From: Alphaproteobacteria bacterium
GTDB lineage: Bacteria > Pseudomonadota > Alphaproteobacteria > Micavibrionales > Micavibrionaceae
DNA: 64,000 bases
Reading direction: 5' to 3'
Assembly (NCBI GenBank): GCA_021775955.1
Contig: JAJFGU010000021.1
Span: 1-64,000 of the forward strand
Below the pieces are notes generated by a model. The model was not told the DNA's origin and did not search any database. It was given only the letters and a program-made list of their open reading frames with translations. This document shows, in pieces, positions 3,572 to 9,881 of this stretch. The translations under genes were made by a program, and so were the position numbers. Position 1 is the stretch's first letter, and each line of letters begins with the position of its first letter.

Positions 3572-4621
3572 CTAAACCAAACTATACCATGTGGCCCGTG
3601 CCTTGCCGTGACGCTGAATATGACCTGACTGCACCAACTCCCGCAGCCGAACTTTGAGCGTATTTTGATTTGCGCTCGTATGCTTTACAATTTCTGCAAT
3701 GCTGAGGCGTTCATGTTCTTTAAGAAGCGCCAATACTTGCGCAGACAAAGCAGGTAAAGCCGGATCATCCGCAGTTTTTTCCTTCTCTACTTTAATTGCT
3801 AGATTGCTTTTTTGTTTTTTAAGACAACGCAGGAAAAAGCCAAGCCACGGCTCCCAATCAGGCGCATCATTTTTCAAGCTCGTTTGCGTACGGCGCAGGG
3901 CTTTATAATATAAATCCTTGTTATCCTCGACCACGCTTTCCAGTGAAGCATAAGGCACATAGCTGTATCCAGCTCGCAGCAACATCAACGTTGTTAAAAC
4001 ACGCGATAGCCTACCATTGCCATCCTGGAACGGATGGATGGCTAAAAACACAACAATAAAAACTGCAATAATTAAAAGCGGATGCAGACTTTTTTCTTCA
4101 GTCGCCTTATTAACCCAATGTACCAGCTCTTCTATTTCACGCGGCGTATCAAAAGGTGTTGCTGTTTCAAAGACAACACCAATTTCTTTTCCGTCTTCAT
4201 CAAAGGCTACAACATTATTGGAGAGGTTTTTATATTCGCCCCGATGACGCTCATCCTTGCTGCTATGGCGTAAGAGCATCTGATGAAGCTGCCGGATATG
4301 ATTTTCCGTGATGTTCATATCTTCATAGGCTTGGAAGATCGTATCCATGGCTTCGGCATAACCGGCCACTTCCTGTTCGTCACGACTTTTGAACGAGGTT
4401 ACGCTGAGATTGGACAGCAGCGTTTCCACCTGCACGTCACTCAACTTTGCGCCTTCGATCCGCGTGGATGAACCAATACTTTCAATCGTCGCCACCTTGC
4501 GAAGCTGGCTTAGCCGCTCGGGGGACATGTTTTTAAGCGCTTCCCATTTGCCTTTGAATTCATCAATCTCGGCTATCAGCTTGAGAAGCTCTTGCGTAAC
4601 GGTGATTTTCGGTTCTTTCAT
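3572..4621 (-). CDS. Fic family AMP-transferase with N-terminal inhibitory motif
   Basis: A 349-residue protein. The Fic core carries HPFQDGNGRLSR at residues 196-207, matching the HPFx(D/E)GNGRxxR loop whose histidine drives transfer of AMP (or another nucleotide part) to a target hydroxyl. An upstream helix holds S52-x3-E56-G57, matching the class II autoinhibitory pattern, where the glutamate blocks productive ATP binding. Residues from about 285 to the end look like a winged helix (LSIAEIVKHTSANQNTLKVR), as in Fic proteins that may bind DNA. No antitoxin gene adjoins, which fits self-inhibition. The target is unknown. Confidence 0.9.
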   Translation of the reverse strand: MKEPKITVTQELLKLIAEIDEFKGKWEALKNMSPERLSQLRKVATIESIGSSTRIEGAKLSDVQVETLLSNLSVTSFKSRDEQEVAGYAEAMDTIFQAYEDMNITENHIRQLHQMLLRHSSKDERHRGEYKNLSNNVVAFDEDGKEIGVVFETATPFDTPREIEELVHWVNKATEEKSLHPLLIIAVFIVVFLAIHPFQDGNGRLSRVLTTLMLLRAGYSYVPYASLESVVEDNKDLYYKALRRTQTSLKNDAPDWEPWLGFFLRCLKKQKSNLAIKVEKEKTADDPALPALSAQVLALLKEHERLSIAEIVKHTSANQNTLKVRLRELVQSGHIQRHGKARATWYSLV

Positions 4622-4718: not shown

Positions 4719-5318
4719 ATGCATATACCTAACCCGCACTACAATCCCGACTGGGAGACCGTTCATGATTACCATTCTAAGCATTGCGTGCGCTTTGAAA
4801 AAGAGATGAGCGCTCTGCTCAGTGATGAAACGATCACTATAGAGAGTGAAGAATATCAAGAACTCTTTAAAGAATGGGGATTTCACAATAGAACATGCAT
4901 GCAATGCCTCAAAGTTCTTCGATATAAAACCATCCCGGATTTTGCAAAAGCGTGTTTTAAGGAATTCATGCCGCCTCTTGATAAGAGCTTTATTCCGCCC
5001 TATGAAAGCTTCAAGAGCATTGATGAGGTCTACGACTCTCGCCAATATTTAATTAAGCTTGGCATGAAAATGCAAGCAAAGGCTGTGATAGAAAAAAGAA
5101 GCGAGGAGGCCAGTAATGCCCTGTATGATCATGAGGGCGGCATTCCCCCTATAAAAAACAGGTTTGGCTTGATGGATATTGTTTTCTGGATAGAAGAGCA
5201 ATTTGAAAATCTGTTCACCCGGCCTCAGAAAGAAGAGAGCGCTCAATCTGATCAATTCGCAACGCTGTTGGAGGATGTGAGTATAGATACTTACTCAAAA
5301 AACCGCTCTCGCCCCTGA
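4719..5318 (+). CDS. hypothetical protein, 199 aa
   Basis: I recognise no family. The predicted protein is soluble, acidic and mostly helical, with aromatic-rich N-terminal sequence (HYNPDWETVHDYHSKHC) and several cysteines, including a C-x2-C (TCMQC). No signal peptide is visible. It runs opposite to the mobilization operon, and its last 104 bases overlap the 3' end of the M48 peptidase gene on the other strand. Either both genes are real with a long convergent overlap, or this frame was extended by loss of an earlier stop. It starts close to a TTGACC promoter-like site. It is the only plus-strand gene between the integrase and the tRNA fragment. Confidence 0.55.
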   Translation: MHIPNPHYNPDWETVHDYHSKHCVRFEKEMSALLSDETITIESEEYQELFKEWGFHNRTCMQCLKVLRYKTIPDFAKACFKEFMPPLDKSFIPPYESFKSIDEVYDSRQYLIKLGMKMQAKAVIEKRSEEASNALYDHEGGIPPIKNRFGLMDIVFWIEEQFENLFTRPQKEESAQSDQFATLLEDVSIDTYSKNRSRP

Positions 5319-6108
5319 TGTCCTCATCTTCAATACGTTCAAACAACGCTACCATAGCCGGACCAAAACCCATTTCTATCGTGAAACGATCAGCTCTATA
5401 TTCAATGGGCCACTCAGTAAAAAACTCCACGGAGCGCATGAACCAGAGCACAGGGAAACTCACCAACCAGAAAAAAGTAAAATAGCTACAAAACAAAAGG
5501 GAAACGAAGAAAAAGACAAATATAAAGGCAAAATTTATTTCCCCTTCTTCCAAAACGATAAAATGCAACAACAAACGGGTCAAAAAGATCGTTGGAAAAC
5601 TGGCAGCAATCAACGCCATGTTGAAGAGCCCATCCTTATTGTGCAAATGCCCTACTTCATGTGCCAGGATTGCTGCAATTTCTTCATCATTTGCCACTTT
5701 TAACAAACCGGTGGAAACAGCTACAGTTTCCCGCCCCAGTGCCATACCGTTAATGTGCGGAACGTCCATGGCAAAAACGCGTTCTTTTATCTCTTCTCCG
5801 TATTTCTGGAGATAAACATCCCTGATCCTTTCCATGACGGGGTTAACTTTTTCTTCCTCACGCAAGCTCATGTTACGAATTGGAAAAAACAGGGCCGCAA
5901 TACGATCGCCCAAAGGTGAAGCGGCAAGAAGCGTTACGCTGAAAACAAAAGCAGCTGACCAGTAAAAAGAATTAAGAAGTACAGGAATATCAAGAAACCA
6001 GCTTCCACCTTGCGTAGCGGTTCTAATGGAATAGATCAAAGAGCCAAGGAACATACTTGAGAAAAAGGCCACTAAAATAAGAAGGGTAAATCTGGCAAAA
6101 TTAATCAT
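5215..6108 (-). CDS. M48 family membrane-bound zinc metallopeptidase
   Basis: A 297-residue protein with two N-terminal membrane helices (about 5-27 and 40-63), a zinc site HEVGH at 150-154, two more hydrophobic segments (about 165-187 and 193-225), and the third ligand glutamate in EYRAD (E236). This is the layout of HtpX-like M48 proteases, which cleave membrane proteins with the active site facing the cytoplasm. It is the last gene of a leftward operon; its ATG overlaps the TGA of the coupling-protein gene by 4 bases, so the two are translationally linked. A role in element transfer or cargo maturation is only inferred from that linkage. Confidence 0.87.
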   Translation of the reverse strand: MINFARFTLLILVAFFSSMFLGSLIYSIRTATQGGSWFLDIPVLLNSFYWSAAFVFSVTLLAASPLGDRIAALFFPIRNMSLREEEKVNPVMERIRDVYLQKYGEEIKERVFAMDVPHINGMALGRETVAVSTGLLKVANDEEIAAILAHEVGHLHNKDGLFNMALIAASFPTIFLTRLLLHFIVLEEGEINFAFIFVFFFVSLLFCSYFTFFWLVSFPVLWFMRSVEFFTEWPIEYRADRFTIEMGFGPAMVALFERIEDEDIRGESGFLSKYLYSHPPTALRIDQIERSLLSEAG

Positions 6109-7880: not shown

Positions 7881-8518
7881 CAGTTTTTTACGCTTTTACT
7901 CAGTTTCTTAATCTTGATAAACGAATATCCCTTGGCTGCTTTTTCTATGGCTCTTGCCACTTCGCTTTGATCTGTAAAATACCAAACCTCGGATACGTCC
8001 AAATTACCACCATAATCTTCAATAATGCTATTAATCCGCGCCCGCGACTTCACCGATAATTCCAGCTCCACCGCTATCGGCTTTTCTTCTCCTATTGTTA
8101 AATATCCATCAGCAATATGCCCCAACTGCCCAACGCCGCTTAAACCCTCATCATGTCTAATGCGCCGATCCGGCTTAAAACTTCCTCCTGTTTCTTTTTC
8201 TAACTGAAGCGCCAAATCCACAAGCTTAAAATCATGCCGAAACGTCCCCAAATTAATCTGCCCCACAGGCCATATGCTATCACCACCCGCCAAAACACCT
8301 TTCTTCGTTACCTTATGAATTCTAGCCTGCCCATGTAAAATCCTCTCCCTTGACATATATCCAGCTTCTACCAGCTTCTTCACCCTCACATACGCTGCTG
8401 TATTTCCAACACCCATCCATCCCTTAATCTGCTCCGCACTTGCAAACCCAAACCCATTCACCCATCGCAACAACTCACTATCTCTTTCCTGAAATATCAT
8501 TCCCCCTTTACCCCTCAT
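7880..8518 (-). CDS. replication-relaxation family winged-helix protein
   Basis: A 212-residue protein. The N-terminus (about 6-75) is a winged helix with a wHTH pattern (FASAEQIKGWMGVGNTAAYVR, then VTKKGVLAG). The C-terminus (about 95-190) resembles the nuclease-like fold of the replication-relaxation family (FRHDFKLVDLAL, then PIAVELELS near 145). Such proteins are found beside coupling ATPases of small conjugative or mobilizable elements and may act in relaxosome assembly or replication. ATG 8518 was chosen because AAGGAG lies 8 bases upstream. It is first in the operon and is preceded by three 12-bp tandem repeats and long inverted repeats. The assignment rests on remembered family resemblance. 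Confidence 0.72.
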   Translation of the reverse strand: MRGKGGMIFQERDSELLRWVNGFGFASAEQIKGWMGVGNTAAYVRVKKLVEAGYMSRERILHGQARIHKVTKKGVLAGGDSIWPVGQINLGTFRHDFKLVDLALQLEKETGGSFKPDRRIRHDEGLSGVGQLGHIADGYLTIGEEKPIAVELELSVKSRARINSIIEDYGGNLDVSEVWYFTDQSEVARAIEKAAKGYSFIKIKKLSKSVKN

Positions 8519-8538
8519 TTCTTCTACTCCTTACTCTC

Positions 8539-8574
8539 TTTTTTCCTTACTTTTTTCCTTACTTTTTTCCTTAC
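8539..8574. repeat. three perfect 12-bp tandem repeats
   Basis: The unit TTTTTTCCTTAC (plus strand) occurs at 8539-8550, 8551-8562 and 8563-8574, with degenerate continuation to about 8600. It lies 20 bases upstream of the first mobilization gene. On the minus strand each unit offers an AAGGA-like motif. Iterons for a replication or relaxation protein, or slippage in a purine-rich leader, are both possible. Confidence 0.8.
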
Positions 8575-8673
8575 TTCTTTACTTACTTCTTACTTTCTAC
8601 CTCTACCCCATACCCACCATTTTTATAACCAAACAACCACTCTTATCAAACATCACCACCATCCCACCACCTA

Positions 8674-8744
8674 CCCCCGCTCCCCCTTCCTGACCTCAAT
8701 CAAAACTATGTTGTTTGGTTGAGGTCAGGAAGGGGGAGCGGGGG
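8674..8744. repeat. perfect 26-bp inverted repeat, candidate origin of transfer
   Basis: Left arm 8674-8699 and right arm 8719-8744 are exact reverse complements (26 of 26) around a 19-base loop at 8700-8718; about five more base pairs can form inside the loop. The arms are GC-rich in an otherwise AT-rich non-coding stretch between the mobilization operon and the tRNA fragment. Position and symmetry fit an oriT, a single-strand origin or a cruciform binding site. No nick-site family is recognised. Confidence 0.7.
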
Positions 8745-8772
8745 CATCTCTTACCTATAAAGGTGTTTGAAC

Positions 8773-8809
8773 AATTAACCTATGAAATACTGTTTTTCAT
8801 AGGTTAATT
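8773..8809. repeat. perfect 15-bp inverted repeat
   Basis: AATTAACCTATGAAA (8773-8787) and TTTCATAGGTTAATT (8795-8809) flank a 7-base loop. It is only 28 bases beyond the 26-bp inverted repeat, and part of the arm (CATAGG) recurs just after it. It is a likely protein-binding site or second hairpin in the same control region. Confidence 0.7.
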
Positions 8810-8989
8810 CATAGGCGTTTTTAAAAAATCAGGTGGGATCGTCCTTCATTCGTATGAAAGCATTTGCTCTTTCCACGGAATCGTATTTATATTGTAAAAC
8901 ATAAGAAAACTTACACATTTTCTTACACATACATAGATATATGGTAAAATTTATCAATTATTTCAAATGGTTATAGTTAGGGCGAAAAT

Positions 8990-9045
8990 ACTTAAAATCT
9001 GTTGTCCGTAAGGACGTGCGAGTTCAAGTCTCGCCGGGCCCACCA
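8990..9045 (+). tRNA. 3' half of tRNA-Leu(TAA): element attachment junction, not a complete gene
   Basis: The sequence from the anticodon loop (CTTAAAA, anticodon TAA at 8993-8995) through a long variable arm (GTCCGTAAGGAC), the T arm (GCGAG TTCAAGT CTCGC) and the acceptor strand to CCA at 9043-9045 matches tRNA-Leu. The 5' half is missing: upstream sequence cannot make the D arm or the acceptor pairing. This is what a tyrosine integrase leaves when it recombines at a tRNA anticodon loop. The intact tRNA would lie at the other end of the element, left of the window. Confidence 0.75.
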
Positions 9046-9881
9046 TCTTTTAGCATTTTCTCCATCAGATCCTCGAAAATTATATTTTCTGAATGCATTT
9101 CTTCTTTGGAGAAACGTTCTTCTGCAGCCAGCGAAATCTCGAGGAATGATATTAAGGAATCTTTTGTCTTTTTATCTTTAAAATCCTGCTTGTCGCTCCG
9201 AAGGTCGCTGAGAATTCTTTGCTTTGAATGCATAAATCCATCGTAGCTATCCTGATTGCTGAGAGAATCCAGCCTTTTGTAATAAATATGCAGCGGCTTA
9301 CAAAAATAATAAATTTTGTCGGTATACTCAAAGCAATCCATCATGAATTGCAGGTCTTCAAGATGCGCTACATCTTCATTGTACGAGACCGGAAAGCGCG
9401 CTTTATCATACAAATGAACACTGTCTCCGGTGTAGTGGATATTCTTATATTCGGAGCTGCTTAAAACTCTGTCCTCAGAAATATTTCCAACAATACGAAG
9501 ATGAGCGCCTTTTTCATCACGTATATCCAGCGCTGATGTCACCATGCCGTGCTCCTGCACTTTGGGAACGCACAGAGACAGCTTATCCGGCATGAAGCAA
9601 TCGTCCGCATCCAGGCTGGCAATGATGTTGCCCCTGGCATGGCGAACCCCTGTATTTCTTCCACGGCAAATTCCTGTTCCCACACCACCCGTCGAAAAAT
9701 GCCGGATGCGCTCATCCGCAACCCCCTGCCCTTTCAAAAACTCCTGATAATCAAACTGGTCGTCGGAAACAATCAGCAGCTCCCAGTCTTCGTAAGTCTG
9801 AGCCAAGACACTCTGGACTGACCTTAGAATATGGTCCCGCGCCTTATAGGCCGGCATAATAATGGATACAAGCTCTGCCAA
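9024..9881 (-). CDS. family 2 glycosyltransferase
   Basis: A 285-residue protein with the GT-A nucleotide-sugar binding start VSIIMPAYKARDHILRSVQS, followed by QTYEDWELLIVSDD and the metal-binding DxD-type motif LDADD near residue 95. The last third is helical and probably confers acceptor choice. It likely transfers a sugar from a nucleotide donor to a cell-surface glycan or lipid. Its C-terminal residues and stop (TGA at 9026-9024) are encoded on the strand opposite the T arm of the tRNA-Leu fragment. It is 13 bases from the CinA-like gene upstream on the same strand. The specific sugar cannot be inferred. Confidence 0.88.
   Translation of the reverse strand: MAELVSIIMPAYKARDHILRSVQSVLAQTYEDWELLIVSDDQFDYQEFLKGQGVADERIRHFSTGGVGTGICRGRNTGVRHARGNIIASLDADDCFMPDKLSLCVPKVQEHGMVTSALDIRDEKGAHLRIVGNISEDRVLSSSEYKNIHYTGDSVHLYDKARFPVSYNEDVAHLEDLQFMMDCFEYTDKIYYFCKPLHIYYKRLDSLSNQDSYDGFMHSKQRILSDLRSDKQDFKDKKTKDSLISFLEISLAAEERFSKEEMHSENIIFEDLMEKMLKDGGPGET

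Follow-up and report, generated by a model that had tools for sequence, protein, structure and literature searches.

A predicted MOBC-type origin of transfer in an integrative element of a marine alphaproteobacterium, and its likeness to Bacillota plasmids

Positions 8538-8744 of a 64,000-nucleotide stretch of DNA (the window) from a marine alphaproteobacterium are, judging by their sequence, very probably the origin of transfer (oriT) of an integrative and mobilizable element (IME). The first-pass annotation had read this repeat cluster as a candidate 'oriT or origin'. The first part of that reading is favoured by the adjoining relaxase gene, by covariation in the arms of a large hairpin and by the presence of the hairpin core on distant plasmids, whereas the second part fares poorly, as there is no initiator beside the repeats and the element is integrative. 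A large inverted repeat accompanied by direct repeats is moreover the layout of known MOBC oriTs, so that an oriT fits. While inverted and direct repeats are already documented for MOBC oriTs, what seems to be new is a family of MOBC IMEs in the Alphaproteobacteria with a core that is shared with Bacillota plasmids; we found no earlier description of such a cross-phylum core in the open-licence literature, a body of papers that does not include the key MOBC studies.

Symmetry elements beside a relaxase gene

Three exact copies of the 12-bp unit CTTTTTTCCTTA, the number given in the first-pass annotation, begin at 8538, 8550 and 8562 within a tract for which TRF returned a period of 12, 4.2 copies and 94% matches (8538-8588). 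The 26-bp inverted repeat is perfect, as had also been claimed (8674-8699 pairs with 8719-8744), and reaches 31 bp with one mismatch around a 9-nt loop (8674-8744); the 15-bp repeat described as perfect is indeed so (8773-8787 with 8795-8809), with the search output giving 18 nt at 94%. That such a density of symmetry is unusual for this DNA holds as well: the two hairpins rank first (28) and second (15) in the 64 kb, the next scoring 13, and the best hairpin in dinucleotide shuffles of 8300-9100 never exceeded 11 (n=300). Folded as single-stranded DNA, the large hairpin yielded -39.7 (plus) and -38.2 (minus) kcal/mol with z of about -13, the smaller one a z of about -7. The cluster lies where it had been placed, between the first mobilization gene and the attachment junction (Table 1), with 156 bp separating the large hairpin from mobC.

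The genes beside the hairpin (mobC, the coupling-protein gene and the M48 peptidase gene) are all transcribed from the minus strand, away from the hairpin. By sequence, the mobC product is a homologue of MOBC-superfamily relaxases: it matches the NCBIfam model MobC_subf over the full length (E 4.8e-10), albeit weakly at 39 bits against a curated cut-off of 200, and its best plasmid match, at 38% identity, is on Carboxydocella pCCELLA01, which is typed MOBC by MOB-suite and encodes a VirD4/TraD-type protein in the next gene. In a 12-protein alignment that includes the pAM373 relaxase, E151, E153, K157, R161 and Y180 are invariant and D137 is nearly so, the pattern D137, E151-x-E153-x3-K157, R161 being of the PD-(D/E)XK type. 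The residues E170, E172, K176 and R180, reportedly picked out in work on the relaxase TraX, have the same spacing as those of MobC, and Y181, which is said to have been proposed as the catalytic tyrosine of TraX, corresponds to an isoleucine here. Profile comparison likens the MobC N-terminus to MarR-type winged helices, and an AlphaFold model built from six sequences was poor (pLDDT 53). On account of the winged helix and the PD-(D/E)XK-like residues, the domain layout matches the published MOBC architecture, which combines a winged helix with a catalytic domain of the PD-(D/E)XK type (PMC9299015, PMC12857230). The active site of MOBC relaxases is apparently akin to that of restriction enzymes, and no covalent relaxase-DNA intermediate has been observed (PMC12857230).

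Table 1. Coordinates of the features discussed, numbered from the first position of the window.
Feature	Position	Strand	Evidence or remark
M48 (HtpX-like) peptidase gene	5215..6108	minus	directly 3' of the coupling-protein gene, in relatives too
TraD-like type IV coupling protein, 591 aa	6105..7880	minus	homology
mobC, MOBC-superfamily (MobC/TraX-like) relaxase homologue, 212 aa	7880..8518	minus	homology, conserved residues
12-bp direct repeats in tandem (4.2 copies, three of them exact)	8538..8588	.	probable relaxase binding site, from sequence
GTTGTTTGGTT box	8627..8637	minus	complement of the hairpin loop; in most relatives
Large hairpin of the putative oriT	8674..8744	.	nearly invariant tip TCCTGACCTCAA/TTGAGGTCAGGA, covarying outer stem
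Core left arm TTCCTGACC	8687..8695	.	common to distant MOBC plasmids
Loop box CAACAT	8708..8713	minus	CAACRT in several distant MOBC hairpins
Core right arm GGTCAGGAA	8723..8731	.	sequence comparison
Smaller inverted repeat	8773..8809	.	inner palindrome CCTATGAAA..TTTCATAGG and a TATGAA direct repeat close by are conserved in relatives
Right attachment junction, with the displaced 3' half of tRNA-Leu(UAA)	8994..9045	plus	core ACTTAAAATC at 8990-8999

An element in a split tRNA-Leu gene

The island interrupts a tRNA-Leu(UAA) gene within the anticodon loop. The loop sequence ACTTAAAATC is common to both island ends, and in a genome of the same genus (G003) the gene is intact and represents the empty site, the island flanks aligning on both sides. 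The left end was located on contig C21 of G000, where the 5' half of the tRNA gene is followed by a tyrosine integrase gene. C21 overlaps contig C10 by 137 nt, and the joined sequence (G000 C21:1-1650, C10:1-243; L097, L006) contains tRNA-Leu(UAA) in full, interrupted at the anticodon loop by an intron of 216 nt; contigs C10 and C14 are unjoined. Against the group I intron family (cut-off 50) the intron scored 47.8 bits in the truncated G000 piece and 50.2 in the relative G002. It thus seems that the island brings along a complete substitute tRNA-Leu gene, which here contains a group I intron; this intron might protect the replacement from being used as an attachment site. The elements of NORP106 and G502 follow a like plan at tRNA-Leu(CAA), with no intron.

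The hairpin sits at the right end of the element, which by its gene content would be integrative and mobilizable: it has an integrase, precise tRNA ends and mobilization genes of its own, and no secretion channel was found. Since no VirB4 turned up in G000 or G193, by a search that as a control was positive in 8 of 14 known genomes, the element would depend on a helper for transfer. Putative Streptococcus IMEs likewise have their own MobC relaxase and VirD4 coupling protein, but belong to the Bacillota (PMC5704250).

Several of these elements carry further genes. NORP106 (L025 8011-19302) holds a complete relative of 11.3 kb between both tRNA-Leu(CAA) halves, with integrase, intronless replacement tRNA, hairpin, mobC, coupling protein, M48 peptidase, methylase and Fic. 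The cargo beside the mobilization genes of G193 (L026 9157-19624) comprises AbiE-like, DNA methylase, Vsr-like, helicase and HNH genes and looks like a defence island. Fic proteins that look unrelated to one another are encoded in three elements (window 3572-4621; L012 9103-10146; L025 17959-19005), and near the left island end C10 of G000 has a ParE-type toxin gene and a small gene upstream of it, probably a toxin-antitoxin pair (L006 3082-3563).

Conservation of the hairpin in relatives and on distant plasmids

A scan of 104 genomes from this bacterial family turned up the hairpin pattern in 8; a match in G471 was set aside as chance, the sequence being unrelated. The comparison set comprised G000 and six relatives: G002, G193, G454, G484 (judging by length and sequence, the contig also listed as NORP106), G030 and G502. 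A wider pattern run across the order gave extra matches that were all chance, and those to a one-mismatch pattern (L073, L075, L077, L080-L083) fell in unrelated sequence and were discarded for the same reason. The 28 matches in viral contigs were also attributed to chance, only L061 being long-stemmed and lying on a phage contig without a relaxase; a relaxase scan of the viral contigs found none. Read along the mobC strand, the smaller inverted repeat comes first, followed by the large hairpin, a GTTGTTTGG-type box and mobC; the RS_9_27 contig begins within the hairpin.

Compensating arm changes, the hallmark that the first-pass annotation had proposed to look for, do occur in the related elements: among the seven sequences, 97.2% of pair cells are paired and 9 of the 26 stem pairs are altered on both sides; none of 500 shuffles came as high. 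Covariation stood at 0.308; shuffles gave 0.092, and slid controls did not exceed 0.082. Of the pairs, 14, mostly at the tip, never vary. The outer stem is therefore kept as a structure and the tip as a sequence. It is highly improbable that the inverted repeats are a transcription terminator and nothing more, as their stability, length and position at the edge of an operon might suggest, because neither strand has a T run after the large hairpin, a scan found no terminator-like site there, the hairpin lies upstream of mobC, and a terminator would not need an invariant tip. The few mispairs near the tip (G000, G002, G193, G454 and G030) are A.C on the mobC strand but G.T on the opposite one, which hints weakly that the opposite strand is the one that folds. 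G030 has the hairpin but no mobC; we reject it as a case of cis-only mobilization, since it is probably a decaying remnant in which the neighbouring abiE gene is truncated.

The accessory repeats are less constant. The exact number of 12-bp copies on which the first reading had dwelt is not conserved: in G002, the closest relative with 97% identity in mobC, the tract persists but most of its units are gone, none are evident in G193 and G454, and NORP106 has 6.5 copies of an 11-bp repeat of different sequence. Short tandem repeats that adjoin inverted repeats could be the iterons of a vegetative replication origin; yet nothing beside them was recognised as a replication initiator, the element sits integrated at a tRNA gene, and repeat sequence and period vary between relatives while the iterons of one Rep are normally kept, which makes iterons very unlikely. 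With no initiator beside the repeats and an integrative element, a relaxase binding site is the better reading of the repeat sequences.

Of the smaller inverted repeat only the inner palindrome is kept between relatives. Together with the direct repeat next to it (8773-8815) it could be a set of integrase or excisionase arm sites outside the oriT, a reading that draws on its closeness to the attachment core here (about 180 bp) and on its position between integrase and large hairpin in G193 and NORP106. We regard this as possible but doubtful: the distance to the attachment site varies between elements while the repeat stays near the large hairpin, which arm sites would in any case leave unexplained. 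The smaller inverted repeat may be a separate regulatory or accessory site.

Beyond the Alphaproteobacteria, the distant set consisted of 22 MOBC relaxase genes from Bacillota and Actinomycetota, several of them interrelated (e.g. four from Paenibacillus). A hairpin scoring at least 13 was present within 1,100 bp upstream of 20 of these 22 genes, versus 2 of 22 downstream stretches of equal length; the remaining two relaxase genes had no hairpin upstream. CCYGACC/GGTCRGG occurs in 11 of the 22 plasmids, and several hairpins are without the exact core. The 24-base core TTCCTGACCTCAACCAAACAACAT is matched at 20/24 positions in Alkalihalophilus and Cytobacillus, at 19/24 in three Paenibacillus and at 18/24 in Carboxydocella, where it forms hairpin arms; as shuffles gave a mean of about 14 and a maximum of 16 to 18, Carboxydocella alone would not stand out. 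The closest cores outside the family, on Alkalihalophilus pBpOF4-02 and Cytobacillus pBkBDGP4A, lie upstream of mobC and a coupling-protein gene, but these are Bacillota plasmids with other outer arms, and their hairpins have no oriT annotation.

The comparison with known oriTs that had been envisaged at first reading was rewarding in the case of Enterococcus pAM373 (MOBC relaxase Orf8), which has TTCCTGACC/GGTCAGGAA in a 25-bp perfect hairpin and, as here, a 12-bp repeat (5.5 copies) beside it, although these repeats are on the hairpin's other side relative to the relaxase gene and both their sequence and the outer arms differ. Position and structure suggest that this hairpin is the published oriT of pAM373, which has been studied and contains inverted repeats (PMC5587640). 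The five direct repeats bound by TraX, the MOBC relaxase that belongs to oriT2 of pAD1, lie 70-120 bp away from nic (PMC12857230). Both pAM373 and pAD1 are conjugative or mobilizable Bacillota plasmids, as opposed to the integrative element described here. CloDF13 is mobilizable and, as here, has a MOBC relaxase (MobC, whose reading frame is broken in the sequence record) and its own coupling protein (MobB); its GGGTGGTCGGG at 9752, inside an inverted repeat, is close to the GGTCAGG of the window, but the arms are shorter, the loop is about 50 nt and no CAACRT box is evident. We take the CloDF13 nick to be at GGGTG/GTCGGG. An occurrence of GGGTGGTCGGG downstream of the hairpin in G454 is absent from the other relatives and was dismissed as chance in a G/T-rich stretch. 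Sporomusa pSSP59 (L101) has four different perfect hairpins of 15-17 bp in a row, with the near-identical loop TTTTATGGG/TTTTACGGG, some 300-460 bp upstream of a MOBC-like relaxase gene.

The hairpin might alternatively act as RNA, either as a leader at the 5' end of the mobC mRNA, its loop CCAAACAACAU pairing with AUGUUGUUUGG downstream, or as an antisense RNA, in both cases controlling relaxase synthesis. Most relatives retain the loop complement downstream, several have a TATAG-like box immediately 5' of the hairpin, and SGI1 requires a small RNA from the oriT-side region (PMC9299015). A leader is difficult to reconcile with core-to-relaxase distances that vary from about 130 to 800 bp on the distant plasmids (in pAM373 the hairpin and the relaxase gene are some 630 bp apart), no Rfam family scored above threshold, and no strong promoter emerged from a scan; matches to Rfam microRNA models were rejected as sub-threshold hits triggered by the long stem. 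We therefore consider an RNA element unlikely, and it could coexist with oriT function; the loop complement may have an additional pairing role, in RNA or DNA.

Proposed mechanism and implications for MOBC transfer

We infer the following course of binding, nicking, strand choice and transfer, alongside the sequences, conservation, covariation and co-occurrence with relaxase genes observed above. With its N-terminal winged helix the MOBC relaxase would bind the 12-bp direct repeats, and it would be positioned on the large inverted repeat, which would extrude, or fold in single-stranded DNA, as a hairpin. It would then nick the core at G|GTCAGG near the tip, and the TraD-like coupling protein would deliver the nicked strand to a helper element's type IV secretion channel. 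From the shared arm GGTCRGG and the presumed CloDF13 nick we predict the nick at plus-strand 8723/8724 or at the mirror site, minus-strand 8695/8694; as the core is palindromic, the strand cannot be told from it.

On balance, we lean towards a single ancestral oriT signature for MOBC relaxases from the Alphaproteobacteria to the Bacillota, and in part the Actinomycetota, nicked at G|GTCRGG and consisting of a hairpin tip TCCTGACC...CAACRT...GGTCAGGA with outer arms that covary freely. MOBC is among the least understood relaxase families and few of its oriTs have been mapped. If the proposal is true, oriTs of this poorly mapped family would be predictable from sequence across phyla. The cross-phylum core would provide a defined nick prediction and a route to the oriTs of elements that have no relaxase, as well as evidence for MOBC-driven gene transfer in alphaproteobacteria. 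As some of the elements carry defence-type cargo (abortive infection, restriction-modification), it would also bear on the spread of defence genes.
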